Shown piece after piece: positions 40,850-61,724 of a DNA stretch of 64,000 nt. The translations under genes and the position numbers were made by a program. The stretch's first letter is position 1. The number at the start of each line of letters is the position of its first letter. This DNA is from Amphiura filiformis (Eukaryota; Echinodermata; Ophiuroidea; Amphilepidida; Amphiuridae), in assembly GCF_039555335.1 (NCBI RefSeq), contig NC_092640.1, positions 35,520,784 to 35,584,783 of the forward strand. Reading direction: 5' to 3'. The notes below the pieces were generated by a model. It ran no database searches, was not told the origin of the DNA, and saw only the letters and a list, made by a program, of their open reading frames with translations.

Positions 40850-40852
40850 ATA

Positions 40853-41611: not shown

Positions 41612-41699
41612 TATAGGGTGTCCCAGACAAAAATACCGGGTGAATTAAATTGAACATAAGTCGAGAAATAGACATTGGAATCAAAAAAATTACACTGTA

Positions 41700-42005
41700 G
41701 CGCGTAGCGAATTTGATTGTGCATCATATGTGATGCGATCAAGCAAAATCATTCGGAACTCGGAAATATTGATTTCCAGATATAGGCATACAAAGGAAAT
41801 ATTTCCTTTTGTTTCCTGTTTTTTTGGAAACTCTTTAAATTGCTTATATCTTTGGAACTGGTTGATTTGGTTGAATGGTGTTTTCTGCAAAATCCAGATT
41901 TGTAAATGCTTTTTACTATCCTATAAAAAAAACTGAAAAATTAATATTTCAGAGTTCCATCTGATTTTGCTTGATCGCATCACATATACTTGTACGCAAA
42001 TTGTA
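41700..42005. repeat. Internal palindrome
   Basis: ATGTGATGCGATCAAGCAAAATC (about 41729-41751) is mirrored by GATTTTGCTTGATCGCATCACAT (about 41964-41986) with flanking partial symmetry. It may be a separate foldback insertion or a subterminal repeat of the host element. Confidence 0.65.
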
Positions 42006-42655
42006 TTTGATTCGGTTGACTGGTTGCGAAGAAATCAACGATTACATAATGCGCGCATCATCAACAGGCGCTTTTTGCATACTCGCTCACCCCTTCCTAA
42101 AGTTTGTGTATCTCATTAAATCTATTCCCCATTATCTATTTTATAATCCGACTATGTTATGCTATTTATGCTTTCACTGATGATATATGAAGATGAACAA
42201 CTTGTCTGAGAAAACTTTAATTTTTGTAATTGCAAGCTTCCCAGCTTTAATTCTTTATATTATGCAAATAATTATTTTATATTTTCACTTTCCAAACACA
42301 TTTGAGCCAAGAATGACAATGATCAAGTGGTTACAGATTTACGTGTGATTTCTGATACCATGCACTATTACGATGAAGTTTTAAAAGACTTAAACTTTGC
42401 ATTACAATTTCTTGGAAATATTCCAAAAAAATTAATGTGTGTGAGAATTAGTTTTTTTGGCCAGCTGGGATTATTTATGGAATAATTCTTTATGCAACGA
42501 TTATATCAACATTATCGAAAAAAAAGTATCGAGCGTCATCTTACATGCATGTTTTCAGTTTTTCAAATTTGAACAAACCCTAATAAAATATTTCGCAAGA
42601 AACAGATTGTTTAAAAAACCCAAAAAGGATTTCAACGAACAAAATATAAAGCCCA

Positions 42656-43329
42656 TTAAGGGAAGGGGTATGAACGTTTGGACAGTATTTATTTTGGGAC
42701 ATAAGAGCACATCAGACATATCGAATTGCATTTTGAATACGAAGAATGTCCTTCTGATATCAAATAATTTTGATTTTTTGAAATTCACAATGTAATACAC
42801 ATTTTATGGCAAATCATTAAAATTGATATTTTTGATATTTAACAGTACTTGAAGTAAACTTTATAAATCTGATGATTTATACTTAAAAGTGTATGTAGGT
42901 GGGATGAAAAGCCGACGATCAATTGAAAATTTTGACCTTTCGTATTGAAGATATGGATTTTTTTCCCAAAACACCCAACATAAAATTAGGTCTTTTGTTT
43001 TAGAAAAATCCATATCTTCAATACGAAAGGTCAAAATTTTGAATTGATCGTCGGCTTTTCATCCCACCTACATACACTTTAAGAATATATCATTAGATTT
43101 ATATAATTTACTTCGAGGACTGTTATATATCAAAAATTTGAAATATATCAAATTTTTATAATTTGTCATAAAATTTGTATTATATTGTGATTTTCAAAAA
43201 TGAAAATTATTTGATATCAGAAAGACATGCTTCGTATTCAGAATGCAATTCGATATGTCTGATGTGCTCTCATGTCCCACAAAAAAAATACTGTCGAAAC
43301 ACAATAAACGCTCATTCTAGATCCCTTAA
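42656..43329. mobile_element. Intact TTAA-flanked palindromic element
   Basis: TTAA-GGGAAGGGGTATGAACG at 42656 and CGCTCATTCTAGATCCC-TTAA ending at 43329. Long arms fold around 42970-43010 (CCATATCTTCAATACGAAAGG and its inverse). It serves as the uninterrupted reference for the copy at 21458-22785. Confidence 0.9.
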
Positions 43330-43808
43330 ACATTAAAACAACTTGTGCCCATTGTGTTGAAGGATCTTTCTTTCAAACTTGGAATGAAGTGAACTGACGC
43401 ATACGTTATGTAATCGCTCATTTCTACGCAATCTGTCAACCGATTCAAGTACAACTAGCGTATAAGATGCATAATAAGATGGTCTACATGCTGCTTTTTA
43501 ATTTTTTTAAATTTTGATGCTTATTTCTCGACGTATGTCCAAAGTCATTCACCCGGTATTTTTCGGGGACACCCTGTATCAAGTTTCATGAAAATCGGTC
43601 ATTACTTTGTAGTAAACATGGTAAACATGGTAAAGGAAACGTTGGAAAGTAACTGTTAAAGTTGTTACGAACGAGCTTCTTAAAGGAAGGATATAATGAT
43701 TTCATGAGTTTTGATTCGCAGCTAAAAAGTAAAGGGTTATTATTATTATTTATTTAGTCACAAATTTCTTATATATATATTGCGAATGATTTCATTTTTC
43801 ATATACAG

Positions 43809-43996
43809 AGAATGGAAGATGAGTTTCAATTCGAAATATCGCAGACGGGATCGCAGAGGATACTTTTACCCTGAATTCGATGAGGATTTAAGCAGTAGGC
43901 ATGGTAGGGAAGATCACATAACCCGCCCTTGGAAAGATCTCCGAGATTTGAATTCTTCTTCGAATTCTTCTTCTTCTTATTTGAATTCTGATTCAG
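43809..43996 (+). CDS. Macro-domain gene copy 1, Ser/acidic-rich exon
   Basis: Acceptor TTTTTCATATACAG ends at 43808 and donor GTGAGT starts at 43997. The last part reads DLNSSSNSSSSYLNSDSG, with one base left over, which matches the phase needed by the macro-start exon at 53107. The paralogous exon at 55035-55130 shares both splice sites, the upstream 200 bp, and the words YPExDEDL and EDHIT. The frame that is open here begins EWKMSF; in copy 2 the start of the exon is best read as MEDGESEF, so an indel separates the copies. There is no known domain; it looks like a disordered linker N-terminal to the macro domain. Confidence 0.45.
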
Positions 43997-44011
43997 GTGA
44001 GTATTTGAAGA

Positions 44012-44253
44012 CCTGAGCGCAAGAAGACCGTAAGTCCACTTGGCCCCTCAACATGTATACACTAAAGTTGGGTTTAGTTTCGTATAGTTTGGTAATGTTT
44101 TATACATGTTTAGGGGCCAAACAAATCTTTCACAACCTTTCATGATGTTTTCACCGTGGAACATGTATTAAACATTATAAAACCATAAGAAACTATACGT
44201 AACTTTAGTGTATACATGGGGCCAAGTGGTCTTACGGTCTTCTTGCGCTCGGG
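44012..44253. mobile_element. Foldback element in the macro-gene intron
   Basis: CCTGAGCGCAAGAAGACCGT (44012 onward) is mirrored by ACGGTCTTCTTGCGCTCGG ending near 44253. Inner arms continue (CCACTTGGCCCC and GGGGCCAAGTGG; ATGTATACACTAAAGTT and its inverse). It begins 15 bp after the donor of the 43809-43996 exon. Confidence 0.85.
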
Positions 44254-44802
44254 TCTTTATTACATTAGGCTAATGGTATTATTTCATATAGCCAAAAAGG
44301 TGGACATTTTTTGTAAAAAGCTGTTTTTTTTTCAGGAATAGGTGTAGAAACATGTGTACTATCACTGACAAAAACTCCCCGCAAATCCCCCGTGGGCGTT
44401 TTTCAAAATCCAAGATGGCGTCCAAAATGGCTGCCATTTTCATATTTTTTCATAATTTCCCAACCATACTAGCTAGAAACACAAATAAGGTATCCAAACA
44501 TATGTTTTGAGGTATGAGGAATATTTATAAATCCATATTAAGAAGATTCAACCCTTTCAAGTGTCCAAAATCCAAGATGGCGTCCAAAATGGCCGCCATT
44601 TTCATGTTATTATCATAATTTCCAAACCATACTAGCTAGAAACACAAGTAAGGTATCTACACATATGTTTTGAGGTATGAGGAATCTTTATAAATCCATA
44701 TTAAGATAATTCAACCCTTGCAAGTATCCAAAATCCAAAATTTGCCGCCTTTCCAAATCCCGGATCTGGATTTTCAAAATCAAAAAGTCAATTTGAGACC
44801 AA

Positions 44803-45430
44803 ACTAGGGCATTCTGGGGTGGCAACTTTTCAGACCAGACCATAGAGCAGTTCTTGATGCGGACACTGAAAATATCAGGAGGAATGACACATGGACGGGA
44901 CATTACAGACAGCACATTGACCAAATGGGTTCATGCTCTTCCTCGATGTGCTTCTATCTGTGACACATTGGAGCAGTTTACTGGAGTTCACACTGGCACA
45001 TCAGAGCAACACAAAGATCTACAGAGTTCACAGGTAAGAGACACCAAGGATCGCGGCATTTTTGAAGAATGGTTAAATGCTCATCTACCGTTTGCTGGTT
45101 ATGAGTGCCTTGGGTCGTCTGCTGAAATCGTTCACAGAACACTATGACTTGCCACAGAATTGCCTCTTCGTAGTAGACGGTGGTCACCTACTTCGACATG
45201 CAATTTGGTCTAAGTCATCCAGACCATGGTGTTTGTCTAGCTTACACTTCACTTATCCTGAATCAATATGGAGTCCAGACCACTGTTGTATTTGATGTCT
45301 ATCATGGAAGCAATACATCCACAAAGCAAGAAGAGCAATGTAGAAGAGCTGAAAAGTGCACATCGAGTGATATTATTTGATAAGAGCATGCCTACCACAA
45401 CAACCCAAGCTGCATTAGTAACAAACTTGA
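44803..45430 (+). pseudogene. XPG/FEN-like transposon protein, N-terminal part (broken)
   Basis: In frame from about 44803 the text reads FWGGNFSDQTIEQFLMR, then GGMTHGRDIT, TKWVHALPRCASI and TSEQHKD. This matches a widespread metazoan family of uncharacterised, transposon-associated proteins that I recognise by its TIEQxLMRSxK...GGxTxGRG signature. The frame breaks near 45147. The next parts lie in other frames: CLFVVDGGHLLRHAIW (about 45164-45212), then GVQTTVVFDVYHGSNTSTKQ and QCRRAEK (45270-45360), which is the N-region of an XPG/PIN nuclease fold, followed by LFDKSMPTTTTQAAL. At least two frameshifts are present and a LINE interrupts it after 45430. The rest resumes at 47716. Confidence 0.75.
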
Positions 45431-45945
45431 CTTACTTGACTTAACTGTACAGGACGTTGTGTCTCTTTGCCCTCTGCCGAGTAAGCCTCTTCCATTCAGT
45501 GTTGTCTGTTGCTTGTGTCTTTGCTTCATGTGGGGTCAATCCCAAGTCCCTCTGAATTTGGTCCTTCCATCTGGTTGGTGGACGACCTGGTGGTCTTGTC
45601 TAATTTCTTGCTGACGTCATTAATGTAGGCTTGGTGGGACTCTGATGTTGAGACTCTGTCTGATGGAATTGTTGCAGATTTTATCAAGTAGGGAATCACC
45701 AAGCATTGCCCTAAGGCATCGCATTTCAAAAACATCCAGTCTGTGTCGATCGGATTAACGTAACACCCAGGATTCTGACCTATAGGTGGCAATAGGGAGG
45801 ATGAGCGATTGGTAGATCCTCACTTTCAGCGATCTGGTGATGTCATGGTTAGACCAGATGGTATTTTTCAATCTACCGAATGCCCAGGCTGCCAACTTTG
45901 TGCGATGTTTAATATCCTCTTCTACTGAGGCCGGGCACACTACTA

Positions 45946-46922
45946 CACTGCAAATGTTCCCGAACACGTGACGCCTCTCAGACGCGTCCGAGGTGTTCAT
46001 AATTGTCTCTTTAGAACACTAGTGTATTTGAAAATATGATAAGCCTTGCACATTAGTGTTCTTTTAGTATAATGTAGAACACATAGTATTGATCAGACGT
46101 GTCACAAGTGTTCTGAATGATTACATTGAATACTGGTGTTCAAAAATGGAACGCATGAGCAGATAGAGGCGTTGGAGAGCTGCGACGTGTCAGCGAGAAA
46201 TACACGGTGCTCCTTTGAAGGAGGGATATAAGTAACAACAACAACAACAACAACAATGGCGATGCAACGTGAAACGCTTCCGGAAACGCTATAACAAACT
46301 GTCTTTTCCAAGACAAATGGGATGATAGTGAGAGTAAATTCGAAGGACTTAGAGAAGAATGAAATTCAGGGCAACTTTGGGAGCGACTCGGAGCCGTTGA
46401 CAGCGATGAACAAGCATAGGAGAGACACAAGAGGGTGACTATGGCCGAGCGATTTTAATCGCATTAAAATGCGTTGCGCTGTCAGCTGCGGGAGATACGA
46501 TCGGCGAGGGTTCGAGCCTTGGGCTTGCCTTAGGTGAAAACTCTCTGATTTCATCGGAATTCTTCGGAACACCGCCATTTTCTTGTTTATACTACCATGC
46601 ATTTGTTTATTGTCGAGTAATGAGATTTTGAAAATGTATAAATAAAGGTTGAACACCAGCATTCTGAAAATCAATGTTTGAACACGTGTCATGTGTTAAA
46701 AAACCGTTACATTTCTTTCATGTGTCCGAGGTGTTCATAGATAGTAATTTTGAACACCAGAGTTTAAAGGATTAGAACATGTAACACTAGTGTTCTGAGG
46801 TAATAACACCTGTGTTCTCTACATTAACACTAGTGTTCTCTAAATAAGTTGAACACGTGTCATGTGTTAAAAAACCGTTACATTAATGAACGCGTTCCAT
46901 GTGTTCTGGCCAATTTACAGTG
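45946..46922. mobile_element. 977-bp TIR element inserted in the LINE
   Basis: The ends CACTGCAAATG and CATTTACAGTG-type inverted termini are flanked by TA (45944-45945 and 46923-46924). LINE coding sequence resumes on either side: FVFLG before and CPASVEED after, reading on the - strand. The interior is full of GTGTTC/GAACAC words, often as ACACTAGTGT palindromes (46700-46860), and carries a SINE-like block. Confidence 0.75.
46435..46525 (+). mobile_element. tRNA-like SINE head
   Basis: TGGCCGAGCGATT (A-box-like, about 46442) and GAGGGTTCGAGCC (B-box-like, 46506-46518) are spaced as in a type II (Leu/Ser-like) tRNA with a long variable arm. The stems are too degraded for a functional tRNA. 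A CAA-repeat tract (46234-46255) lies 180 bp upstream. Confidence 0.5.
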
Positions 46923-47715
46923 TACCCAGAAAGACGAAGTTATTTACTAAAATGGCATCTGGTTCAGCATGATATCTCTTGGATCGTCAGATATGATCTT
47001 AGTTGGGTTAATTTTCATTCCCCAACTGCTGCATGCTTTCTCCAAATCATTAGCGGAGATTTGCAGGTTCTCAAAGTTCATATCAATGATTGTGGTGTCA
47101 TCTGCATATCGGATGTCACCCATTTGCACACCTGAGCCTAGATTTTGGACGTCCTTCATAACAAACTCCAGATATATATATAGATTGAAGAGGCATGGTG
47201 AGAAAAGACATCCCTGTCTAACACCAACTAGAACTTCAAACCAATCGGCGATCTTTCCATTTACCACGACTGAGCATTTGGTTTGCTCATACATTTTTGC
47301 AATGAGGTCTACTGATCGCAGACATTTCCACAGGACTTCCCTCCATCTGTCAATATGGTGTCAAATGCTGCTTTCTACAAAATTCCAGTGTATTGGAATG
47401 CGTCTTTCTTTAGCCATTTCAAAGATTTGGCGTACTGTAGACTTCATCTGAGGTGCCTCTGGAACTCCTGAATCCACACTGTTCCTCTCTCAGATGGTTA
47501 TCTACAGTCTGTTGTATTCGGTTAAGAACCTACAGAATACTTTTATTGGGATTGACAGGAGGGTAATAGTTCGGTAGTTGGCTGGGTCCAGTTTATCGCC
47601 CTTTTTGTACACAGTGGTTTAGATTTTTACTCCAGTCTTCGGGGGTTGTCCTTCAGCCTAGGCGGTGTTGATGACATTTGTTGAACAAACAGCGACTTAT
47701 ATATGATATACTTAT

Positions 47716-48293
47716 ATGATCAGTGAGAGGATGCGTATGGCTGGAATTCATGTCATCCAGGCTGAAGCAGATGCCGATACATTGATTGTGTCCACAGCCC
47801 TTACAGTAGCAGAGACAGAGGAGCTACCAGTTGTGGAGGTGGGTACAGACACTGACCTACTTGTGATGTTGGTGTCCAGGGCAAGTTCAACAATAGCCTA
47901 GATACCTTCATGAAATCTTGCAGTAATCCTGAGATAGCGTTCTGAGTAAATGATTATCCAGCAAGCATTGGGAGATACCAGGAACTACGTGTTGGCACTT
48001 CATGCCATCACAGGGTGTGATACAGTCTCAGCCATCTATCGCCGGGGAAAGCGTAACCCTTTCAACATGGTACACAAGAAAGGCAAAGATGACTTCCTAG
48101 GGACCTTTGCGTACAGTACGAGTAGGCATGATGAGGTACAGAAATAAGGTGAAGGCTTCATCCTTCAGCTTTATGGGGCCAGCAAATATGATTCACTTAA
48201 TGAGTACCGCCACATGGTGCCTGGATGTAAGCCTGATGGATGCAACACTATGACATGTAGTTGCAAGAAACTAGGTCTTCACTGTACAACATT
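47716..48293 (+). pseudogene. XPG/FEN-like transposon protein, middle part
   Basis: Continues the 44803-45430 pseudogene after the LINE. RMRMAGIHVIQAEADADTLI...VVEVGTDTDLLVML (47725-47870) is an XPG internal-region signature: an Ala/Glu/Asp cluster followed by a TDTDLL acid pair. NYVLALHAITGCDTVSAIY (47980-48035) and NPFNMVHKKG follow after a stop and frame change, then a TAA at 48144-48146, and FILQLYGASKYDSLNEYRHM on the far side. PGCKPDGCNTMTCSCKKLGLHC (48215-48280) begins a CxC cysteine cluster. A 211-bp MITE enters after Cys-Thr-Thr. Confidence 0.78.
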
Positions 48294-48504
48294 CAGTGGC
48301 GGCGCCACGGGGGGGGGGCATGGGGGGATGCCCCCAGTCAGAACTCTTGCCCCCCCTGTTGCCCCCCCCCAGAAAAAACCCAAAATTACGAAAATTTCCA
48401 CTTTTTACGGTAATTTTGCGCAAACTTTGTTGATTTTGCCCCCCCTGAAATTCACTTTGCCCCCCTAATGCCCCCCCGAAAAAAAATTTCTGGCGCCGCC
48501 ACTG
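48294..48504. mobile_element. 211-bp hAT MITE with perfect 8-bp TSD
   Basis: ACAACATT stands at 48286-48293 and 48505-48512. Ends CAGTGGCGGCGCCA and TGGCGCCGCCACTG are perfect 14-bp inverted repeats, followed by G- and C-runs. It lies inside the Cys-cluster region of the XPG-like pseudogene; removing it and one TSD copy restores the frame across the site. Confidence 0.93.
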
Positions 48505-48618
48505 ACAACATTGTGCAGACAATGCAGTGGCTATACTTGTTGCAACACATCATCAAAGAGGACAATGAAAATGAAACAGCGATCACAGCTGCTGAAGGCA
48601 CAGAGCCGGCTGAATTTT
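48505..48618 (+). pseudogene. XPG/FEN-like transposon protein, C-terminal Cys cluster
   Basis: After the MITE the frame resumes as LCRQCSGYTCCN, completing the pattern CxC...C...CxxCxGxxCxN seen at the C-terminus of this transposon protein family. It then runs through a basic region to a stop near 48619. It probably binds zinc or DNA; this is inferred from cysteine spacing only. Confidence 0.7.
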
Positions 48619-48622
48619 AGAA

Positions 48623-49542
48623 TTAAAGGGCAGGTCTATTGCGAAAACAACACCATATCATTGGCAAGCTAATATTATGAGGACAATGAAAATAACTCCT
48701 TTTTTTGAGAAAATAAGACGTTAAAATTGATATTCCGCAAAAACCAACTTCAGCGGTGAGTTCCTTCGAACGAGACAGATTTGGCCTAGAAAAACGGTGA
48801 CGTCATGAAATGAGATGTGCCCGCTTTGAGAAAGGGACTATAAACGCTCTCAATGGACAGAACGTATACTGTTGTTGTTCACAGAAAAAAATTCCAAATT
48901 AAGTATTACAAATTTAATGGTTTTTAAACATATGGATCAAATCAGCCGCTTCTTTTTTATATATTAGACAATTGTGATATTACGATTCATATGTATATCA
49001 ATATCATGAGAAATATTAGGCCTAAAAATAAATACATAATTTGAGCTTAGAATTTCATCTGAGACTAGCATATAAACCGTGTTAAGTTCACAAACTCATG
49101 TACATCTGATTTCCCTGTATATTGCAACGCAATAGTTTCAGTTGGATGAAATATTACAAAGCGAACGCATAGAAACAATACTGTGCTTGCTTTGTTCCCG
49201 AAATGAGAACAATGGTGTGCATATTGTTATGCAGCATTGTTATGGTAAGTGATAGTACAACTCTTTGTTGCTAATGTCAAACTTGTCAAAGTGATTGTGA
49301 TTGTATGATGAGAGCGTGATATAGTGCCCGCTTCATTTACCTACGTCATCAGCCAAACGGGGGGAGAACACGTACGCTTCAAACGGGGGAAGAACACGTA
49401 CGAGGCTGAACTTTACCCACACAATTTCTCCTTTTTCAGGAGAAATACGCACAAAAAATTGCAACAAGTGTCAACTTGTAATGTAATAATTATTCTCTTC
49501 GAATAGAGATAAACTTGTTTTTGCAATAGACCTGCCCTTTAA
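48623..49542. mobile_element. 920-bp TTAA-flanked element
   Basis: TTAA-AGGGCAGGTCTATTGCGAAAA at 48623 and TTTTTGCAATAGACCTGCCCT-TTAA ending at 49542. TIRs are about 25 bp with one or two mismatches. The interior shows no transposase; two copies of AACGGGGGxAGAACACGTACG lie at 49356-49401. It sits just after the stop of the XPG-like pseudogene. Confidence 0.88.
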
Positions 49543-49671
49543 AGGTATTTCATAACTGGAGCAACGTACCTCTTTAACCACAAATTTTCAATCTGATGCC
49601 ATTTTTAGCCAATTGAGTTAGGTTTCTATAGTTGGAGGTTTCATCCAAATCGTATGGCTCCAGATGCCCTA

Positions 49672-50364
49672 CCAAGCAAACACAAAACGTTTTCGACATC
49701 ATTCGCAAAAGGTATAATAAAAGGTTGTCAGAAAACGTTTAAATGTCGGGTTATATAAAGGGTACATTAATTATATAAAACGTTTTCATAACATTAAATA
49801 ACATTTGTTGGCAATTTACTGCACAGCAAACACAAATGTTTTACAGAAAACATTTAAATGTCGGGTTATATAAAGGGTATAAAAACGTTTTAATAACATT
49901 CCAAAAACATTTTTGAAAACTTGGTACAAATCATTCTAAACAGAATAATATTTTGGGGTTGAAAAAATATTTTGCAAAAAATGTTTGCCCAAAATATTTA
50001 CAATAACGTTTTTAAAATGTTTTCACGACCTTTATATACCCGACATTTAAATGTTATTAAAAAGTTTTGTAAAAAACGTTTTAAGAACATTTTGTGTTTG
50101 CTGGGTGCAAATATTTTAACATAATGTTATTTAAGTGTTGACAAAATATTTGGCCAAAAAAGTTTGCAAAAATATTTTACAATGACATTTCGAAAACATT
50201 TTAAAAATATTGTTGTAGTGTGTTTTCATACAAAACGTTTTAAAACGATTTTATGACCTTTATATAACCCGACATTTTAATGTTATTAAAACATTTTTAC
50301 CTAAACCAAAACCCAAAATATAACTTATTTAAAACGTTTTAAAAACGTTTTTGTGTTTGCTGGG
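49672..50364. mobile_element. CCCAGCAAACAC-type MITE, copy 1
   Basis: It begins CCAAGCAAACACAAAACG and ends CGTTTTTGTGTTTGCTGGG. The interior is full of AAAACGTTTT words and GTCGGGTTATATAAAGG, which occurs in both orientations. The inverted relative is at 55748-56438. Flanking TA on both sides could be the target site. Confidence 0.8.
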
Positions 50365-50885
50365 TAGTTTGGTCTCAAATTGTGATTTTTAAATTACAGA
50401 TCCGGGCTTTGGAAAGGTGGCAAATTTGGGGCGTCATTTTGGATTTCGGATACTTGCAAGGGTTGAATCATCTTAATATGGATTTATAAAGATTCCTAAT
50501 ACCTCAAAACGTTTAGATACCTTACTTGTGTTTCTAGCTAGTATGGTTTGGAAATTATAAGATAAGCATGAAAATGGCGGCCATTTTGGACACTTGCAAA
50601 GGTTGAATGATCTTAATGTTGATTTATAAATATTTCTCATACCTCAAAACATATGTTTGGATACCTTATTTGTGTTTCTAGCTAGTATGGTTGGGAAATT
50701 ATGAAAAAATATGAAAATGGCGGCCATTTTGGACGCCATCTTGGATTTTGGAAAACGCCCACAGGGGATTTGCAGGGACCTTTTACCAGTGATTCTATAC
50801 TATTCCAGAAAAAATCAGCTTGTTACAAAAAATGTCCAGGTTAAAACTAATACTATTGGCCTATATAGCGAGTCCATGGTTTTCA

Positions 50886-51355
50886 TTCTACCATCAGCCA
50901 ATGGGAAGCCTTGATTGTGTCCGTTTGTCTGCAATTCGCATGCGCCACACTCTCAGCGGCAATCGGCGAGACAGTATGAAACTAGCAAAAACGGTTCAAT
51001 GTTAATACAAATCACCCACTCATACTTCAAAGAATTTGGAGATAACATTGTACCAGGCAAACAAATAATGTGTGATTTGCATAAAAAATAGATTCCTATT
51101 TAAATCATCGTTTTCACTGATAGCTACTGATCGCATTGTCCCCTTTTAATTTCGAGCCAAATAAATGAGGTTAAACGAAGATAATTTCATTCCAGCGCCT
51201 ACAATGCGTGTATTTAGCTCGCCGATTATTATTATCATGATTATCGGGAGCTTCACGCAGCTGCTGGGATTAAAACAAGACGTTTAAGACGAAAGCGATA
51301 CACACACAGTTTATGCGTCAAGTCGACGTACACTATAGTGCATTATGCGTGTATA
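50886..51355 (+). other. Macro-gene intron, duplicated segment (copy 1)
   Basis: 50893-51060 (AATGGGAAGCCTTGATTGTG onward) is paralogous to 56838-57010, which marks the host intron between TE insertions. The remaining 300 bp has no recognised feature. Confidence 0.75.
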
Positions 51356-52701
51356 CACTTCTAGTGCCCGTTTCTATTCATCGTTATGTATTCTTCTCCC
51401 GTGCATTATTTTCGCGAACTACCCTCCACAGCCCAAATTATATAAACCTGCACGCTAAACAATGCATTATCTAAAACCTGCACGCTAAACAATAGATTCT
51501 AGATAATACGTGCACGCTCAAATACTAGAAATACTACTTTCACATTTACCATATAGTAGAGTTAGGTGACGCTTTCGACACAGAGGTCACATAACTATAT
51601 AATTGTCTGTTCGATATATATACCATCAAAAAAGTACGAATATACATTCTGTGGTGTTAAAATGGTATAGTTACAAACGGTGTTCTATAATAGGGTACAA
51701 TTACCGAATAGGGTGCAACTCGCTAGACGTGAGTCCAGTCCTCGTTTACGGAGTTTAGGGTTAGGGTTTAGGGTTGAGGTAGGGCAGTCTTGTAATAAGA
51801 CTAGTAGAGTTGCACCCTATTCGGCAATCGCTCGTGCAAAGATCATTGTCATAAATTATGATTAATGACCTCAAATAAATCAAACATCAAATGAGAATAA
51901 TCGAGCTTCTATTAATTAAAAAGGGCCAAAAACAGGTGGATCATAATTATACAAGATGACACCATTGCAAAATATTCAGCATTTTACAAATGAAATACAT
52001 GTAGGCCTATATCTAAAATAACATAGCCGGGCCAGGAAACACACACTAGCGCATAATATCATGATCATGCTTTATAATACCATAGGCCTTCAAACACATG
52101 TGTTTGAAGGCCTATGATAATACTGAACAAATTGTTAAATCCCAATGTCGTGTGTTTTAATATAAGTAGATTTTAAAGTTCAAATTATAGAGCTATAAAG
52201 TCCAGTTGATATTCACCGTAGTACTAGTCGGACATCTAAATCGATCGTTTCCAGGAGAACTGGTTCAGTGCTCTAAATGATCACAACATAAAGTCAATTG
52301 GTTACAAACCATGCGTGAATAAGTTACTAAAGTATGACGTATGGCGCAATCGATACCATTGATAGCTAAGTTATACAGGGATTGATTTTCTTTACCAGTT
52401 AAATGCTACGTAGCTGGTCAATGTCCTGACGGTGTTTTTAAAATGTAAGATATTTTCCCTAATATTAAAACTAATATAATGAATGCAGCAATTAATATTG
52501 CCTATTGTTTTAATAGGCCTACACTCAAAGTGTATGACGGATAATGTACTCGTGCAAATGCATTCGTCAAGATAATTGCACTTGCCATGGAGTTATTGCA
52601 TTTAGCTCTTGAGCCTATCGGCTCTCGAGCTAAATGCAATAACTCCACGGCGCGTGCGATTATCTTGACGAATGCATTGCACTCAGTTCATTATCCTTAT
52701 C
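51356..52701 (+). mobile_element. 3-bp-TSD element, inverted full-length copy
   Basis: Reverse complement of 23537-24880 with very high identity over about 1.35 kb, flanked by ATA at 51353-51355 and 52702-52704. It includes the 36-bp palindrome (52080-52115), the CCCTAA-type tract (51755-51785) and the terminal hairpin (52545-52696). Near-identity with a copy 27 kb away in inverted orientation indicates recent activity or duplication. Confidence 0.88.
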
Positions 52702-53106
52702 ATAATCTCGCCAATCGTATTATTTATCATAATTATTGGCAGCGCTACACGCAGCTGATGGGATGTACAAACAAGACGTATACTAGAATCACGAGGTGAA
52801 CTTACACACTACTCAAAAAGAATGTATCAACACTGCAGATCGTCTACATCAGGTTAATAATTGTTTTATATAGGCAGTGAAAATGCTCCGCCAGAACTGA
52901 TTGTCCAAATTGACTGCCTCGGTTCAATACGCATCATACGGCCACACATTCAGATTTTCTTCATTGAAGCTAACGAGTAATTAGGCCTATATAAAATCAC
53001 TTCATTACCTGATTATGAACACCTAAAATCAGACATGGACACCTTCCGATAAAAGGTGTTTGAATGAAGTTCGTTATTAACATGTATCCAATTTTTATAT
53101 TGTTAG
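52702..53106 (+). other. Macro-gene intron, duplicated segment (copy 1)
   Basis: 52830-53106 is paralogous to 57450-57782 (AAAAAGAATGTATCAACACTG, GAACTGATTGTCCAAATTGAC, CATACGGCCACA, TTCATTGAAGCTAACGAG). It is well conserved up to the acceptor. Confidence 0.8.
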
Positions 53107-53756
53107 ACATTGACAGCTTTACATCGGGCTTCCAAGATGATTTTTCTAAGGTGAGCTTTCCAGCAGCAGGAGCCTCCTCAGTTACATCATTGGTAACCTT
53201 TGTTTCTAGAGATACTGTTTCTACTAAAGAAAAGAAGATAATTACACTGAAAAGGGGTGATATTGCAGCCATTGGCGTCAATCCCAGGAGGATATATCAA
53301 ATGCCCCCCCCCACGTTTCGGCAAATACTTCCTTGGTCTAAATAGGCTACTGTAAAAATACTGGCAATATTCGTATCATACCTTAATTTTTGGCTAAAAT
53401 AGAATAAATTGTAAATTTTTTTCGCGCTCTGCGCGCACTTCATCCATTAAATTTATTTTCTTCCCCCTCCCCTACCTCCTCCCTCGACACAAAAAATCCA
53501 GGCACGCCACTAGAAATGAACTGCAACCTGCTTCATTTTTCGATTTTTTACAGCTAATATTCTATACAATAGTGTAAAAAGTATCCACCAAATGCCTTCA
53601 TTTTGACGCCCATTTTCTAAAAATTTCCCGCGGCTGAGGGGGCGGGCACATCCCCCTCAGACACGAGAGACATGTGTCGCGGTCATATTTAAGACAACTT
53701 GTGTACCCCCACTATCAACTTACTTCGGGTTGACGCCCTTGATTGCAGCTGAAAAT
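53107..53756 (+). pseudogene. Macro-domain gene copy 1, macro-start exon split by a MITE
   Basis: The exon consists of 53107-53269 plus 53750-53756. Acceptor TATTGTTAG ends at 53106. Reading from the phase-1 junction gives DIDSFTSGFQDD, then VTSLVTFVSRDTVSTKE and IITLKRGDIAAEN, where RGDI is the first strand-loop of a macro domain. It matches exon 57783-57934 with six extra residues. A 472-bp MITE interrupts it after Ala-Ala, and the donor has decayed to GTGACT. The exons that should follow (the rest of the macro domain) are not found before copy 2 begins near 54840, so this copy cannot make a full macro domain. Confidence 0.8.
53270..53741. mobile_element. hAT-like MITE with perfect 8-bp TSD in a macro-gene exon
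   Basis: ATTGCAGC is at 53262-53269 and 53742-53749. Ends CATTGGCGTCAATCC and GGGTTGACGCCCTTG are inverted with few mismatches. Removing the element and one TSD rebuilds an exon that matches the intact paralogue at 57783-57934. No coding capacity. Confidence 0.92.
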
Positions 53757-53768
53757 GTGACTACATGC

Positions 53769-54309
53769 CGAGGGGGCACTCAACCTTTAAAGTGACGGTA
53801 TGTGCCTGTCAATAGGCCCCCTTTTTTTTTTCGAATATACCGAATAACCCCCTTTTTTAAAAAAAGCCATAACCGATGACCCCCTTTTTTAAAAATGCCA
53901 GACCCGATGACCCCCTTTAAAAAAAAACATACCCGATGACCCCTTTTTTTTAGGTCCGGCTACCCAATAACCCCCTTTTTTTCTAAAATTGTATCATAAA
54001 AATACCACGAAATAATGCAGAAACTTTCAAATCTGTTGTATTTGTTTTGTAAATCGGCAAAATTTGGGACGAGAAATAGAATTTTGCTCCATTTTTTCCC
54101 AAAAATTTTCTAAACGATGACTCATTTTTTGACATTTTATACCCAATGACCCCCATTTTTCGCAATATTATACCCAATGACCTCCTTTTTAATTTTGTTT
54201 GTGCTCAATGACCTACTTTTCTTAAAACAACGTTTTGTACCGATAGGACCCTACTTTGGAACGCTGGTAGGCACATACCCGTCACTTCTAAAGTTGAGTG
54301 ACTCCTCCC
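53769..54309. mobile_element. TIR element with CCCCCTTTTTT-rich interior
   Basis: CGAGGGGGCACTCAACCTTTAAAGTGACGG at the left is mirrored by CCGTCACTTCTAAAGTTGAGTGACTCCTCCC at the right; the interior repeats GATGACCCCCTTTTTT. The same element type occurs at 28148 and 34333. It lies in the intron just after the broken exon; paralogous intron sequence resumes at 54322-54385. Confidence 0.8.
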
Positions 54310-54848
54310 AGAACAATAAGGAGAACGTGTTCACTGCAATGTTCCGTTTCATACCCCCTCCCCCAAAATGCATGTTGAGAAAAAGCTACGAATTATTAAT
54401 GTCACCGAATTACGTAACATGATTATGCGCTTCATAAAAAAATGCACTGAGCTCGGTAGTTAAAAGTAATGCTAAAAATAGGAGGGGGTCATAGTTTTTA
54501 CAGCAAAAATAGGGGGTTATAAAATTATTAAGGATTGTCGACTCAAAATTTTCACAGGCAACGCTTGCATTCTTTTAACTAAGACGTGGTGTGAATGCCA
54601 TTGAGAAGATCTGATATCTGCATACAGAGAAATGGTGGCCATACCCTGATGGCCATGTGGGAGACTTATCTGTCAACTACTGTAAAGAAAGTGGTTAAAC
54701 ATGAGATTGAATGTTGCTTTGAGTTTGAATAGGATCCTTAATTATTTTTAATTAACTAATTTAAATCTACCCCTTCAGCTTTACAGGCAATACTTTAGGC
54801 TACTTGTCTCCAACCCTACTTAACTTATACTTGGTCCTTGTTTCGTGG
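54310..54848 (+). other. End of macro copy 1; possible small exon
   Basis: 54322-54385 matches the intron at 57950-58015 of copy 2. Further on, 54628-54732 follows a CATACAG acceptor and is open for 34 codons (NGGHTLMAMWETYLS..., ending FEFE-stop). No counterpart is seen in copy 2, so it may be an exon of the locus or chance. Confidence 0.3.
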
Positions 54849-55034
54849 TAAAGAAAACGTTGGAAAAGTAATTGTCAACGTTTGTTACGAACTATTCTAA
54901 TGGAGGGACATGACGATATCATGAGATCCGAATCGCAGCTAAAATATTAAAATATTACTATTATTTTTATTACTCATTTTGGGCAAAAATTTCCCATTTA
55001 TTCATATATTGCGAATGATTTCATTTTCATACAG

Positions 55035-55130
55035 AGAATGGAAGATGGGGAGTCAGAATTCAATTACCCTGAATCAGATGAGGATTTATATACTAGTAGT
55101 AGGAAGATCACATAACCCACCCTGAATCAG
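55035..55130 (+). CDS. Macro-domain gene copy 2, acidic first coding exon
   Basis: Acceptor TTTTCATACAG ends at 55034 and donor GTGAGT begins at 55131, as in copy 1. From ATG at 55038 it reads MEDGESEFNYPESDEDLYTSSR. Compared with copy 1 it then lacks about 10 bp and shifts frame; EDHITHPESG lies in the frame that has the right phase for the next exon. About 90 bp of the Ser-rich end found in copy 1 is also missing. The 200 bp upstream and the donor region are paralogous to 43590-43808. The ATG may be the true start of the protein. The frame break means either a pseudogene, an unrecognised alternative exon, or a sequence error. Confidence 0.45.
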
Positions 55131-55152
55131 GTGAGTATTTATACATGATTCT

Positions 55153-56828
55153 CATTTTGATTTGATTTCATTTTATTCGGATCTCCATATTGCACATACA
55201 ACAATACAAGGTAAATAGATATAAAATGCATTAAGATAAATAACATAATACACATAAAAAAAGAAAACAAGGAGATATCACAGGATAGCCCTTAAAGCCC
55301 AAAGGCTTATTTCCGAAGGGGTCCTTTATACATAGAAGGGCAAAAGGCATAAATAAAACCAAAAACATACGAATAAATAAATATATACAAGTGAATATTA
55401 AAAGTAAAAAAGTATTTAAACATGATTAAAATCATTAGAAACTAAATTTGGTTAAAAAGATGAGTTTTTACAGACTTTTTGAAACTTGGTTTATCAGAAA
55501 TTTATTTGATTGCACTTGGTAAGTTGGCCCAATCCTGAATGGCATTATAATAAAAAGAGCCAGAAGTGATGGTAGTGGATTTTGGAACACGAAAATTTTG
55601 AGCACTGTTTCTAGTACTGTATTGGAGCACGTTTGAAACTCAAAGTACAAGAGCAGAGCATAAAATTTTCTTGATATTTTGATCAAGAAACTTTGCCTGT
55701 CTGTAAAGAAATTTGAGTCTAGAATTTACTTTTTTTTATGACATCAACCCAGCAAACACAAAAACGTTTTAAAAACGTTTTAAATAAGTTATATTTTGGC
55801 TTTTGGTTTAGGTAAAAACGTTTTAATAACATTAAAATGTCGGGTTATATAAAGGTCATGATAACGTTTTAAAACGTTTTGTATGAAAACACACTACAAC
55901 AATATTTTTAAATGTTTTCAAAAATGTTATTGTAAACTATTTTGCAAACATTTTTGCCAAATATTGTGTCAATACTTACATAACATTATGTTAAAATATT
56001 TGAACCCAGCAAACACAGAAATGTTCTTAAAATGTTTTTTTCAAAACCTTTTAATAACATTTAAATGTCGGGTTATATAAAGGTTATGAAAACGTTTTTA
56101 AAACGTTATTGAAAATATTTTAAGCAAAAATTTGAAAAAAAAAATATTTTCAACCCCCAAATAACATTCTGTTTAGAATGTTTTGTATCAAGTTTTCAAG
56201 AATGTTTTTGGAATGTTATTAAAACGTTTTTCTACCCTTTATATAACCCGATATTTAAACGTTTTCTGTAAAACATTTTTATTTGCTGAGCAGTAGATTA
56301 TCAAAACATGTTTTTCAAGGTTATGAAAACGTTTTACACTCTTAATATACCCTTTATATAACACGACATTTAAACGTTTTCTGATAACCTTTTATAACCT
56401 TTTGCGAATGATGTCGAAAACGTTTTGTGTTTGCTGGGAAGACCCATTTCTTCACTATTCAAGCATTGGTCAATAGTAAGACCTAAGTATTTAACTGAGG
56501 GAGTAGCATGAATTGTTTGCCCTTCACACTCAATGGTATAATTTTGCCAATTCTTCAATTTACGTTTTGTTCCAACAAGAATGAGTTCTGTTTTACCCAT
56601 GTGGAGAGACAGTTTGTTATCAATGAGCCATTTGTTACAGTTTTCCAGATTTTTGCTAAGCTGCTGCCCAATTTTTAACGGATCTTTATCAGAAACCAAA
56701 AGAGCGCTATCGTCGGCATACTGAAGGAGCATACAATCAACACAGTTGGGCATGTCGTTCACGTAACAAAGGAACAAAATGGGACCCAAGATACTCCCCT
56801 GTGGAACTCCACATGTTACATCCATTAT
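55153..56828 (-). pseudogene. Jockey/CR1-like LINE in the macro-gene intron, interrupted
   Basis: On the - strand, 56370-56825 encodes CGVPQGSILGPILFLCYVND (RT motif B), LLQYADDSALLV (YADD near 56703-56722) and VKYLGLTIDQCL. After the MITE at 55748-56438 the C-terminal part continues in shifted frames, with FRVPKSTTITSGSFYYNAI near 55535-55600. The 3' end at 55153 is an AATAAAATGAAATCAAAT-like tail read on the - strand. It is 5'-truncated just before motif B and not functional. It entered copy 2 after the duplication, since copy 1 lacks it. Confidence 0.85.
55748..56438. mobile_element. CCCAGCAAACAC-type MITE, copy 2
   Basis: CCCAGCAAACACAAAAACG at 55748 and CGTTTTGTGTTTGCTGGG ending at 56438. 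It is inverted relative to copy 1 (49672-50364) and carries the same GTCGGGTTATATAAAGG words. It interrupts the LINE reverse transcriptase just after the YLGLTID region. Confidence 0.85.
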
Positions 56829-57782
56829 CCCATGTCATAACCAATGGGAAGCCTTGATTGTGTCCGTTTGTCTGCAATGCGCATGCGCCACGCCGCTCAG
56901 CGACAATCGACACGACGGTATGAAACTAGCAAAAATTGTCCAATGTTAATACACATCACCCACTCATACTTCCGAAGAATTTGGAAATGACATTGTACCA
57001 AGCAATACTGCTTGTACAAAAATGACCTTTGTTCTGAAGAAGGGGACAACCAGTAATTATCCCGATCAAACACTAAGACATGGATTGGAAAAGTCATCTC
57101 TCCAAACATGCGCCAAACGACCACGAAAGATGCGCGGGTATAACTATGAAAAAGGACTCGAGAAAAGCAGCCACCAAAGTGCTACCCGTCCAAAAAACAC
57201 CACTTCTATCTGGTCTTCTATCTGGTGTGAACTAATGGTGTGTACATGGTGTATGGGTGCTTTAATGAGAGAAAGGGTAGATTCCATCGTCAATGGTGAT
57301 AACAGTGCCCGTAATAAAATGTAGACTTGGATCACATGGGTAGATTGACAGGGGGCCATAGTCAGAAAAGATAAGTTGTAGTTGTATTGGGACAGGTAGT
57401 ACAAATTGATAATTGCTCTGGAGAATCATGAACGGTCAGGACGGAGAGGTACTAGCATCATGAGGTGAATTTACACACTCCTCAAAAAGAATGTATCCGG
57501 GAATGTATCAACACTGTGAACGAGGGCAATTAATTAATGATGCCTAATCCGTAAACCGTACATGGAGAACTGATTGTCCAAATTGACGGCCTCGGTTCAA
57601 TACGCATCATACGGCCACATATTCAAATTTTCTTCATTGAAGCTAACGAGTAAATATATAAAATCACCGTTCTTTACCTGATTAAGAACACCTAAAATCA
57701 GACACTGACACCTTCCAATAAAAGTCGTTTGAATGAAGTTCGTTATTAACACGTCCCACGAACCCAAAATTTATATTATTAG
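56829..57782 (+). other. Intron of macro-gene copy 2
   Basis: 56838-57010 and 57450-57782 are paralogous to 50893-51060 and 52830-53106. Between them, 57022-57324 is a 100-codon open frame (Lys/Ser-rich, with LEKSSLQT and LEKSSHQS as an internal repeat) that has no counterpart in copy 1, no recognised domain, and is not needed for the exon phases. I leave it uncalled. Confidence 0.6.
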
Positions 57783-57934
57783 GCTTTGGCGGGTTTACAT
57801 CGCGCTTCCAAGATGGTTTGGGTTATCCAGGAGCCGCAGTTACATCATTGGTAACCTTCGTGTCTAGGGACACTGTTTCTACTAAAGAAAATATGATAAT
57901 TACACTGATAAGGGGTGACATTGCTGCTGAAAAT
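57783..57934 (+). CDS. Macro-domain gene copy 2, macro-start exon
   Basis: Acceptor TTATATTATTAG ends at 57782 and the donor GTGAGT begins at 57935. The exon starts in phase 1 and ends in phase 0. It encodes FGGFTSRFQDG, then VTSLVTFVSRDTVSTKEN and MIITLIRGDIAAEN. The last residues join to VDIIVNSTG of the next exon to give RGDIAAENVDIIVN, the canonical opening of a macro domain (GDI...VDxIVN). The region before it has no domain I recognise. The exon is intact here, while its paralogue at 53107-53756 is broken. Confidence 0.78.
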
Positions 57935-58802
57935 GTGAGTATATGAGGATATCGTGTTCATTGTAATGTTCCGTTTCATGACATGAATAGACTCGACCAA
58001 AAAATGCATGTTGAAAAAAAAAGGCTGCGGCAGTGGCTTAGCGTCATAGGGACAACGGGGGTGGGGGGGGGTGAGGAAAATTGCCAAAAACGGCTTTGTG
58101 GCGTGCGTGCAGGACAAACGGAAAATACCTTTCCGAGAAAAACGCGTTTGAAGGATATGCTACTAATAACATAGTCAGTACTCCAATATTATCTCTCAGT
58201 GGACCGATTACATTTGAAATTGAAGTTAAAGGATTAAACTATAAAACTGTAACTTTTAAAGGTTCAAAAGGAATAACTTTTACAGGATATGTCTAGCTTT
58301 AAACTTATACGCCACTATGTGAAACGGAAGATTTGGGGGTTTCGGCGGATTTTTGAAGCGTAAGTCGCACATACGCCACTATGTGAAACGGAAGATTTGG
58401 GGTTTTCGGCTCGTTTCTGAAGCGTACGCCACATTATTGACGGATGATGTGCCTAAATGTCATGAAATCCGATTTTCGCCGTTTCACATAATGGCGTATG
58501 TTGATCGTACGTCAGTTTGTGAAACGGAATATAATGTATTCTTACGGGATTGTTAACATAAGTCAATTAATTAATTAACGTTATTTATTAATTAAGTATA
58601 GTTGAGCTTTCTTACTTGGTATACTGGAAGAACTTGATATATAAAACCGTTGGGCAAAATTTCATAAAATTGACCAAAATCACCGTACGCCACTATGTGT
58701 TGCGACCCACGAACTAACTCTATTTGCCTATAGGAAAAACAACAACAACTTAATACTCCGGCTTCGAGTTTAAAAAGCGCATGTTTACAATATTCGTTGT
58801 AG
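57935..58802 (+). other. Macro-gene intron with a repeat block
   Basis: 58020-58110 resembles the repeat at 28110-28160 (CAGTGGCTTAGCxTCATAGGG). 58300-58520 holds ACGCCACTATGTGAAACGG twice and once inverted (CCGTTTCACATAATGGCGTA), with a further partial copy at 58684. An open stretch at 58150-58296 (TPILSLSGPITFEIEVKG...) ends in a stop and has no splice sites that fit the macro-domain phases. The acceptor TATTCGTTGTAG ends at 58802. Confidence 0.6.
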
Positions 58803-59042
58803 GTGGATATCATCGTCAATAGCACTGGAAGGAGTATGAATCTCAACTCAGGCGGCATCTCCAAAGCAATATCAACTGCTGGTGGACCAGACCTTCAATA
58901 CAACTGCACCCAGGTGTTGCGACAAATGGGAGCCACCTACGTGGCGGTGGGAGACTGCATTGAGACAGGACCAGGCAACCTCAGGTGCCAAAATGTCTTT
59001 CATACTGTGTGTGAGAGATACCGTGGATCAACTTCAGAGACG
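58803..59042 (+). CDS. Macro-domain protein (PARP14-type), central macro exon
   Basis: Acceptor TTCGTTGTAG, 80 codons in phase 0, donor GTATAT. It encodes VDIIVNSTG, NSGGISKAISTAGGPDLQ, then GDCIETGPGNLRCQNVFHTVCERY. These are hallmarks of macro domains, which bind ADP-ribose or mono-ADP-ribosylated protein: the conserved Asn of VN, the GG loop, and xGNLxCxxVxH. With 57783-57934 before and 59690-59909 after, it builds a complete domain of about 170 residues. From memory, the closest relatives are the macro domains of the PARP9/14/15 group, which act in ADP-ribose signalling and innate responses in animals. No PARP catalytic domain is visible; the gene stops soon after the macro domain. Whether it binds ADP-ribose is an inference from conserved loops. 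Confidence 0.87.
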
Positions 59043-59689
59043 GTATATGTTCTTAAGATGATTATTATTTTGTCCCCTATCTTATGTCATTGAGTATCAA
59101 TCGTAACGAAAATTGTGAGATTTAAACTATTTATTGGTAAAGTTAGATATACTGTGAAACATTAAAAGTAAAGGTATTGACGTTTCGGTTTTAATTATAA
59201 TTTTAATAATTGAATTAGGGAATAAACGATAGGAATTTTAATTTTGACTATCCTCTACCGTGTGATAAACGACAGGCAGGTCCAATAGTGGAAGCCGGCG
59301 ATAAAAATATTGGACCTGCCTCTCGTCTATCATAGGTAGAGGATAGTCAAAATTAAAATATTATCATAATAACTGTAAACTATTTTTTGAAGCAAATATT
59401 AAGTTACCCTCCCCTTTTTCTAAAATGAATGAAACTTGTTACAACTTCACACCTTTTGTTGTGCGTACTGCTAGTGCGTGCGAATATTCCGCACTGCGTC
59501 TACGCATACAACGCGATACATACGTGCCCCTCTATTACGCGATATCAACACTCATGATGACGTGGGGTCATCTACGGGCTGATAGACGACACCCAAAATC
59601 ATGCGATTGTCCAATCAGATTATGTGTATACGTAATAGACCACTCCCACTGACTAAGAATACACAATCCTTGCTTGTCTTTCCTTTCAG
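59043..59689 (+). other. Macro-gene intron with a foldback element
   Basis: 59235-59359 is a hairpin element: TTTTGACTATCCTCTACC and GGTAGAGGATAGTCAAAA at the outside, AGGCAGGTCCAATA and TATTGGACCTGCCT inside. The remaining sequence shows nothing else. The acceptor CTTTCCTTTCAG ends at 59689. Confidence 0.75.
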
Positions 59690-59909
59690 ATTCTAAGATC
59701 CCTTCTACAGAAAATACTTCAGGAGGTGACCAAAAGGCTGTCGATCTATAGCCATCCCAGCACTTGGTACGGGGAACTTCGGTTTCCCACACAATGTAAC
59801 AGCACATATCATGTATGATGAAGCCATCAAATTCTCTCGACAAAACCCGAGAGGGTCACTCGCTCACATTCGCTTTGTTGTGTACCATCAAGATCAACTT
59901 ACAATTCAG
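59690..59909 (+). CDS. Macro-domain protein, second macro exon (one frameshift)
   Basis: It starts ILRSLLQKILQEVTK in phase 0 from the previous exon. It then continues, after a one-base shift at the AAAA run near 59732-59735, as GCRSIAIPALGTGNFGFP, the second phosphate-binding loop of macro domains, followed by MYDEAIKFSRQN and HIRFVVYHQDQLTIQ. The IPALGTGNFGFP loop and the HIRFVV...IQ ending closely resemble PARP14-type macro domains. The exon length (220) is one base too long for an open frame, so either this is a true frameshift or a homopolymer error. Donor GTTTGT. Confidence 0.8.
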
Positions 59910-60081
59910 GTTTGTGTTGTTGTACTCTTTATGTTAAACTTTTTGGGTGTAGGTTGTCACTGCTCAAAAATAAAATCAGGTGGTTCAAGCATAGCCCTAG
60001 CTGCTCCTGATAAAGTAGCTGATCGATTATTTATTACTTGATATCAAAATGTATCAATATCATTCGTTGTGTCACTCATAG

Positions 60082-60372
60082 GCATTTGAAGATGAGATGC
60101 AGAACCTTCTCCAACAATGGCCTGCCCGAGCATCTGGGTCAGGTCAAGTGGCTACAACGGCGGTCCCAACAAGAAGAAAGAAGTTCTCAAAATTAACACG
60201 AGCTGGTTATCCAAATCATTATATGGATGAGACGCAGAACTGTTTTCGGCAATCGCCTGCCCGAGCATATGGATCCAGTCAAGTGGCTACAACAGCGGTC
60301 CCAACAAGACGATCAATGCAATCACGAACGAAAGCTGGTAATCAAAATCATTATATTGAAGCTTTTTTGTAA
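60082..60372 (+). CDS. Macro-domain protein, terminal exon with duplicated segment
   Basis: Acceptor GTGTCACTCATAG ends at 60081; phase 0. It begins AFEDEMQNLLQQW, which matches the way PARP14-type macro domains end (xQAFxDEx). Two tandem copies of a ~45-residue segment follow, each with SPAR/WPAR, GSxQVATTAVPTRR and a NHYxxE ending. The stop TAA is at 60370-60372. The tail is basic and low in hydrophobic residues, so probably disordered. The two repeats are close at nucleotide level, indicating a recent internal duplication. Confidence 0.7.
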   Translation, partial: AFEDEMQNLLQQWPARASGSGQVATTAVPTRRKKFSKLTRAGYPNHYMDETQNCFRQSPARAYGSSQVATTAVPTRRSMQSRTKAGNQNHYIEAFL

Positions 60373-61724
60373 ACTGTATACAGTTTGTCCCAAAAACAAA
60401 ATGTAACACTTTGTGTTGTGCATCATAACCTTCAAAGAACATTACCTGCAGCCCAATGCTTTAGATATTTATGTTATACAGGGTGAGTCATAAAAAGTGC
60501 AATAGAGCAAATAATCTATATTTACGTGAGAACCAGGTTGAACTTTGATAGATGCCACGTCCAATAGTCACCTGTTGTGAAAAAATAAGTGAATCGCAAC
60601 TATCCTTTTACGACGATAAGTAAAGGTTGTGATGTGCCCTGAGTAATTTAATTTGAGGATTTGGCTGTGTTTACAAAGTGACACGAGTGATGGCGGTGTA
60701 GGGGAATTCCCCTCTGAAATTGAGCAAAACAAGTTGAATCATATCTAAGTTGGAATATTTGGAACCCCCCCCTGAGGTTGTAAAGTGAAGATGATATCAC
60801 AGGATTTCCCTCAGGAAATGATGTCATGTGAAAGGTTAATGTTATAATTAAGGCTTGGGAATTTCCAAGATGACATTTGACTATTAATATTTGGGATTTC
60901 CCCCTGCTTGGTATATAAGAAAATGGAATCACAATTATTCACAGTTGATAGTGTTGATCTGGGCTAGATAGCTAATATGCTTACAGTCCAATTCCTTCAA
61001 AGAAAGGAAATTGCAAACAAGAAATATTTTATGTAGCCAAAGTACTACTATTTGCCAGTGTTGTCGGAGAAGATCTAGACTACGTCAAAGAACGTACTTC
61101 TTCCAAGAAAGGAATATATTCTTCTGGTGTTTTTATTTCTATGCAACTGTCAAAATAAGTGGGGAAAACTGCATCGCAGTCCTGCTTCCTGAAGATATTG
61201 TGTGGAAGGTGGAAATAGCACCAATTTTGGAGAAAGCAGCACAAGGAGTAAAGAGATTTGGAGAACTGCGCAAGGAGTTTAGTATTGGAGAACGGCGCAA
61301 AGAGTTTAGTATTTGGAGAACTGCGCAAGGAGTTATAAACGTGTTTGGAGAACGACGCAAGGAGTTTAGTACTTGGGAGATCACCATTTTCGTATGAGGA
61401 TTTTATACGCAAGGATTTATAAGTGCAAGTGTACAATGGACTTCGCTGATTTTCGCAGGACAAGCGAATAAGGATATATATTACATCAGTCGTCCAGAAC
61501 ATTGCAAGAACTCTTTATGATCACCAAGAAGAATGCTGGCTAAGTACTAAATAGTTAAAGAGTGGTCATATTTGATTATTGTGTATGAGTATTTGTTGTC
61601 ATATATTGTACCAATCATAACGTGCTTTCAATTAAAGACTTTTGTTAGCTTAATCAAACAGTGTATTTGTGTTGTGTAATATTATATATTATAAGACAAT
61701 ATGGCATAATGTGACGTTCATGAT
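60373..61724. other. Non-coding: LTR-like sequence and a 32-bp tandem repeat
   Basis: 60478-60500 has a lone ACAGGGTGAGTCA mariner-type end with no partner. About 60627-61660 resembles a solo LTR: GGTATATAAGAAA (TATA box, about 60918) and a late CAATTAAAGAC poly(A)-like signal near 61630, but no clean TG...CA ends or target duplication were found. Inside, 61246-61385 is a run of about four imperfect 32-bp units (GGAGAACxGCGCAAGGAGTTTAGTA). The open frames across it are products of the repeat. Confidence 0.4.

Follow-up and report, generated by a model that had tools for sequence, protein, structure and literature searches.

The question raised by a 64,000-nt stretch of Amphiura filiformis DNA (NC_092640.1; this whole stretch is the window, and all coordinates are relative to it) is whether it carries two tandem copies of a PARP14-type macro domain gene, one kept complete and the other destroyed by transposons, as a preliminary description had claimed, or something less than two genes. 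We favour, with a probability of roughly 0.6, a gene with a single macro domain whose 5' part was partially duplicated in tandem. The upstream unit (copy 1) would have been a fragment from the outset, both units have been hit by transposons, and the downstream gene (copy 2) is disabled as sequenced.

A tandem, collinear and probably partial duplication

The two stretches, 54846-60500 and 43300-54845, were compared by sensitive blastn, with 100 local shuffles as a control. Five homologous blocks were found in the same order and on the same strand, spanning 43628-54384 in copy 1 and 54846-58020 in copy 2 (Table 1). They score between 46 and 391 bits, against a top score of 35.6 bits in the shuffled comparisons. 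The segment is thus duplicated in tandem, with its blocks in the order that had been proposed. The comparison returned 13 rows in total; the eight that were dropped score 39 to 72.5 bits, in part more than the weakest true block. They lie within 49734-50351 and 55761-56378, and were omitted because members of one repeat family are inserted there in opposite orientation (90% inverted match). Gap-free identity is 83.5, 87.6, 86.4 and 78.3% across four aligned stretches, which is compatible with a single duplication event.

Since the region is rich in repeats, the blocks might be read as unrelated dispersed repeats that stand in the same order by chance. We find this hardly credible: there are five blocks in one order, the boundaries of exons 1 and 2 match, exon 2 is in the same frame in both copies, and a comparison of the window with itself recovers the three largest blocks, each with its counterpart as the sole partner (the two smaller blocks fall under its stricter cut-off).

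The homology has clear ends. In front of 43628/54846 and behind 54384/58020 none was found; the flanks score 19.3 and 22.9 bits at best. In copy 2 the duplicated unit now measures 3.2 kb, inserts included.

The upstream copy consists of two exons

The donor of exon 1, CAG/GTGAGT, is common to both copies. The end of exon 2 in copy 1 lies past an inserted element, and its donor there is GTGACT, not GTGAGT. The splice signals fit the identical exon phases (1 then 0) that had been assigned to the two copies; for the closed exon 1 of copy 2 the phase is a nominal one.

Exon 3, exon 5 and the latter part of exon 4 were used as tblastn queries against the window (E up to 10); the beginning of exon 4 was looked for at the DNA level only, by blastn and self-comparison. 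Neither these searches nor the blastn comparison above revealed a second copy of exons 3 to 5. The three tblastn queries are single in the window, all their other rows having E values of 0.057 or more. Pfam scans at E up to 0.01 were run on the three plus-strand frames of 37602-43798, 43997-54845, 54845-60402 and 60373-64000, unspliced scans of this kind being able to miss a domain split by introns, and stretches before 37602 were covered by tblastn with the exons found here. In 43997-54845 none of the three frames holds a Pfam domain, and copy 1 past block 5 has no match above 23 bits. The absence of downstream macro exons from copy 1, noticed earlier, is thereby borne out. Because no trace of exons 3 to 5 was found and the homology does not extend beyond the beginning of intron 2, copy 1 is probably a 5' fragment made of exons 1 and 2 that never was a whole gene. 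In a whole-gene tandem duplicate all exons would be traceable in both copies; here exons 3 to 5 occur once. The contrast between a copy destroyed by transposons and a complete one therefore does not hold, as the upstream unit is partial and copy 2 is damaged too.

The downstream gene, as sequenced, is broken in two places

In copy 2, stops interrupt all three frames of exon 1 (55035-55130); in copy 1, one frame of this exon is open. The second defect lies in exon 4, where ILRSLLQKILQEVTKRL and RSIAIPALGTGNFGFP are encoded in two different frames; both align to PARP14, and they are too close together for an intron. With 220 nt and a phase-0 junction at either end, exon 4 loses its frame within the macro fold, and two frames are needed to run through it. 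When the first exon-4 frame is followed, the protein covers positions 1-91 of the 118 positions of the Macro profile with 41.8 bits, and when the break is bridged with an X it covers positions 1-118. The complete macro fold that had been ascribed to copy 2 is contradicted by these two defects, and a gene judged complete by eye can conceal a frame break. If translated, copy 2 would yield a truncated macro domain, whose ADP-ribose pocket is expected to be incomplete. Rescue of exon 4 by a programmed frameshift or an intron was considered and rejected, as the two frames adjoin without a gap and inspection by eye revealed no slippery site.

The main competitor of a disabled gene is that copy 2 is live, which we regard as possible though unlikely. 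The shift in exon 4 would then be an assembly or sequencing error, exon 1 would be non-coding, and translation would start at the methionine of exon 2 (MIITLIRGD) or in an unseen exon. The splice signals at the proposed junctions, and the X-bridged protein that covers the entire Macro profile and shares 61 of 168 aligned residues with PDB chain 3q71, speak for a live gene, as do the open frames of exons 2, 3 and 5. It would, however, take two separate defects to be harmless or unreal, and exon 1 lacks an open frame although its donor matches the consensus and its acceptor is good.

Exon 5, whose open frame stops at 60372, contains two imperfect tandem units at 60091-60359 with a spacing of 135 bp. 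Its translation has no match among solved structures in the PDB at E up to 1.

A macro domain closest to the second one of PARP14

When exons 2 to 5 are joined with an X at the frame break, the predicted protein matches Pfam Macro (PF01661) over the whole profile with an E value of 3.6e-20 (72.5 bits, cut-off 22), as had been expected of the spliced exons of copy 2. Exon 3 alone reaches 38 bits, and exon 2 of either copy by itself has no Macro match. The match is independent of the exon model, because the unspliced plus-strand frame matches Macro as well, in two stretches (E 2.9e-13, 50.2 bits).

The top PDB chains are those of the antiviral protein PARP14, namely 3vfq, which includes two macro domains (E 1.1e-45), 3q71 (8e-27, 97.7 bits) and 5o2d (1.1e-25). 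They are followed by PARP14 4abk (67.6 bits), PARP14 3q6z (63.6), PARP15 (63.2) and PARP9 (58.3), and finally by a bacterial deacetylase (57.9), MACROD1 (41.5) and macroH2A (37.3). In this sequence ranking the domain is nearer to PARP14 than to MacroD or macroH2A. The sequence of 3q71 is that of the second macro domain of chain 3vfq, and we take 3q71 to be PARP14 macrodomain 2. Judged by sequence, no solved structure is closer to the domain than the second macrodomain of PARP14. Since macrodomain 2 of PARP14 is reported as an ADP-ribose binder in the abstracts of two papers (PMC9477163, PMC10470015), an intact ancestor of this gene would, by analogy, most probably have been able to bind ADP-ribose.

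The label PARP14-type thus stands for the macro domain and not for the remaining architecture. According to an excerpt of PMC13224862, PARP14 has three macro domains and N-terminal RRM/KH domains. The gene described here has a macro domain like that of PARP14, but only one, followed by a tandem-repeat tail, and its frame is broken. No RRM, WWE, KH or further macro domain was found, nor any Pfam match other than this Macro, in the scanned plus-strand stretches of 37602-64000, and no PARP catalytic domain in the three plus-strand frames of 60373-64000, the downstream DNA visible within the window; a domain split by introns could be missed in both cases.

Relatives of exon 3 were also sought elsewhere. 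In viral contigs there were 17 pattern matches, none of them confirmed, and in prokaryote genomes one of 111 pattern matches was confirmed (L001, Paraflavisolibacter caeni, 33% identity).

Transposons entered both units

The preliminary description had placed a miniature inverted-repeat transposable element (MITE) inside the macro-start exon of copy 1, and the flanking repeats ATTGCAGC and the inverted ends CATTGGCGTCAA and CAAGGGCGTCAA confirm it. The 8-bp target-site duplication and short inverted ends are those of a hAT-type MITE. Parts of the element resemble 36546-36676 and 36819-36945 with 72-73% identity. A second element with inverted ends was read by eye in copy 1 at about 53764-54311.

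It was also right that about 9 kb of transposons fill intron 1 of copy 1, as this 9.1-kb intron consists mostly of inserts, a 6.5-kb element and a 1.35-kb repeat. The 6.5-kb element harbours other repeats and a reverse-transcriptase fragment (RVT_1, 46950-47360, minus strand). Apparent remnant coding pieces lie within it at 44797-48260 on the plus strand; 44797-45144, the sole piece tested, had no Pfam match. Imperfect direct repeats of about 65 bp at 51222-51285 and 52709-52779 were seen by eye to flank the 1.35-kb repeat. Transposons are not a feature of copy 1 only: intron 1 of copy 2 holds an RVT_1 fragment and a nested repeat at 55747-56441.

Table 1 Position of duplicated blocks, exons and inserted elements in the window. 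Paired positions are given as copy 1 / copy 2.
Feature	Position	Strand	Remarks
Block 1	43628-43821 / 54846-55047	+	141 bits
Block 2	43866-43929 / 55064-55123	+	57 bits
Block 3	50898-51060 / 56841-57005	+	210 bits
Block 4	52781-53269 / 57450-57927	+	391 bits
Block 5, last homology after exon 2	54316-54384 / 57943-58020	+	46.4 bits
Duplicated DNA upstream of exon 1, copy 1	43628..43808	+	in block 1, 141 bits
Exon 1, copy 1	43809..43996	+	acidic/Ser-rich; one frame open up to donor CAG/GTGAGT; ends phase 1
DNA element of ~6.5 kb with long inverted ends, copy-1 intron 1	44301..50838		inverted match 44301-44806 / 50838-50365
Conserved intron block, copy 1	50898..51060	+	51 bp at 98%; CCAAT-box-like and NRF1-like words
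Young repeat insertion, copy-1 intron 1	51353..52705		1.35 kb; 99.7% identical to 23533-24883, opposite strand
Conserved intron block preceding exon 2, copy 1	52781..53106	+	in block 4
Exon 2, copy 1, portion 5' of MITE, macro domain start	53107..53269	+	tblastn with copy-2 exon 2: 68.6% identity, E 2.5e-15
hAT-like MITE in copy-1 exon 2	53270..53741		472 bp; target-site duplication ATTGCAGC at 53262-53269 and 53742-53749
Duplicated DNA upstream of exon 1, copy 2	54846..55034	+	blastn
Exon 1, copy 2	55035..55130	+	closed in 3/3 frames
Nested repeat, copy-2 intron 1	55747..56441		90% identical to 50365-49669, opposite strand
Reverse-transcriptase fragment, copy-2 intron 1, presumably of long interspersed nuclear element (LINE) type	56373..56834	-	RVT_1 E 2.3e-14; LINE name inferred
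Conserved intron block, copy 2	56841..57005	+	210 bits
Conserved intron block preceding exon 2, copy 2	57450..57782	+	in block 4
Exon 2, copy 2	57783..57934	+	152 nt, phase 1 to 0; donor AAT/GTGAGT
Exon 3, first part of macro domain	58803..59042	+	240 nt, phase 0 to 0; Pfam Macro alone E 1.8e-9
Exon 4, second part of macro domain	59690..59909	+	220 nt between two phase-0 junctions; frame broken
Exon 5, macro domain end, tail and stop	60082..60372	+	imperfect tandem repeat, 135-bp spacing

Course of events and points that weigh against it

The collinear homology shows that a segment running from the DNA upstream of exon 1 through exon 2 into the beginning of intron 2 was duplicated in tandem. 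The mechanism was likely unequal exchange or slippage during replication, with selection relaxed afterwards. From where the homology ends, only the downstream unit would have remained joined to exons 3 to 5, the upstream unit being a 5' fragment from the start. Transposons that the units do not share then entered both, one of them landing within exon 2 of the fragment, and as sequenced the downstream gene is disabled too, by its closed exon 1 and the frame shift of exon 4 in the macro core.

Several points speak against this course of events. Exons 3 to 5 may have been deleted later, together with their surroundings, from a copy 1 that was once whole. The exon model is inferred and comes from one assembly, in which the shift of exon 4 may be a sequencing or assembly error, and exons 2 (of copy 2), 3 and 5 are open. 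Finally, the 29-codon tail of exon 2 differs between the copies at 6 of 22.0 synonymous and 3 of 62.7 replacement sites (dS 0.34, dN 0.05; Fisher p 0.009, with counts cut to whole numbers and the tail picked after viewing the alignment), which suggests that it was constrained for some time after the duplication. Because the tail was chosen post hoc, this is a hint at most. The 18-codon head of the exon has 0.5 synonymous and 10.5 replacement changes (p 0.09) as well as in-frame indels, and over all 47 aligned codons (6.5 of 34.7 synonymous and 13.5 of 102.2 replacement sites, p 0.57) there is no significant difference. These counts leave out the last codon pair, into which a base of the MITE falls.

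The open exon 1 of copy 1, with its consensus donor, leads to another reading, in which there is one gene with alternative 5' ends. Exon 1 of copy 1 would be spliced, across some 14 kb, to the exon 2 of copy 2, which its phase fits (both are phase 1), and so bypass the exon 2 damaged by the MITE. We consider this improbable, as the product would still be truncated by the shift in exon 4 and a long intron filled with repeats would need to be spliced. It is very improbable that the half-duplication made a second promoter and first exon, both exons 1 now being alternative 5' ends of one, perhaps functionally truncated, macro protein.

The decaying, partial tandem duplicate preferred here agrees with the published picture of the PARP14-like family. 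Passages of PMC4245714 describe PARP14-like genes as frequently duplicated and often close together on the chromosome, and parts of PMC4038475 describe recurrent birth and loss of PARP14 and PARP15, with PARP15 lost in several lineages, and a fast turnover of the family that is tied to host-virus conflict. PARP9 and PARP15 are given as partial duplicates of PARP14 in a portion of PMC13224862. They resemble the present case in being partial duplications within the same family, but they kept macro and catalytic domains, whereas in the present locus the duplication took in just the 5' end of a gene with one macro domain. The proximity of the two units is also like that of the clustered PARP14-like genes of lancelet and the PARP14-like duplicates of sponge, as far as excerpts of PMC4245714 and PMC13224862 describe them; those were counted as proteins, while the upstream unit here is two exons. 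With this locus the PARP14-like family gains one further example of a gene that was in part duplicated in tandem and has decayed; the general view is unchanged.

Conserved stretches outside the exons

Within intron 1, 51 bp at 50898-50948 and 56841-56891 are 98% identical and include a CCAAT-box word and an NRF1-like palindrome. They are a possible promoter inside the intron, which we give as a lead only. In the window, the NF-Y-like word has 4 exact matches (reached by 8 of 100 shuffles) and the NRF1-like word 8 matches at up to two mismatches (reached by 21 of 100), so that neither is clearly enriched.

A second stretch, of 91 bp (52893-52983 and 57566-57656), is 96% identical and lies in the presumed intron just 5' of exon 2, being a closer match than exon 2 itself. 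One possible reading is ELIVQID.LGSIRIIRPHIQIFFIEANE and then a stop, and by eye the copies differ in two third-position changes and one replacement. It could be a hidden exon; the peptide of copy 1 has no Pfam match, and no donor was seen by eye.

Elsewhere in the window

A tRNA scan and an Rfam scan gave no matches. On the plus strand, open frames at 2018-2416 and 4181-5029 match the two halves of an F-box-like profile (positions 2-25 and 24-46), the second continuing with weak leucine-rich-repeat matches. With scores under the Pfam cut-offs, 2018-5029 is probably an F-box/leucine-rich-repeat gene with an intron in the F-box. A dense cluster of near-identical repeats in both orientations occupies 22427-28060, with units spaced about 324 bp apart at 26615-28060, and is possibly a satellite or a group of nested young elements.

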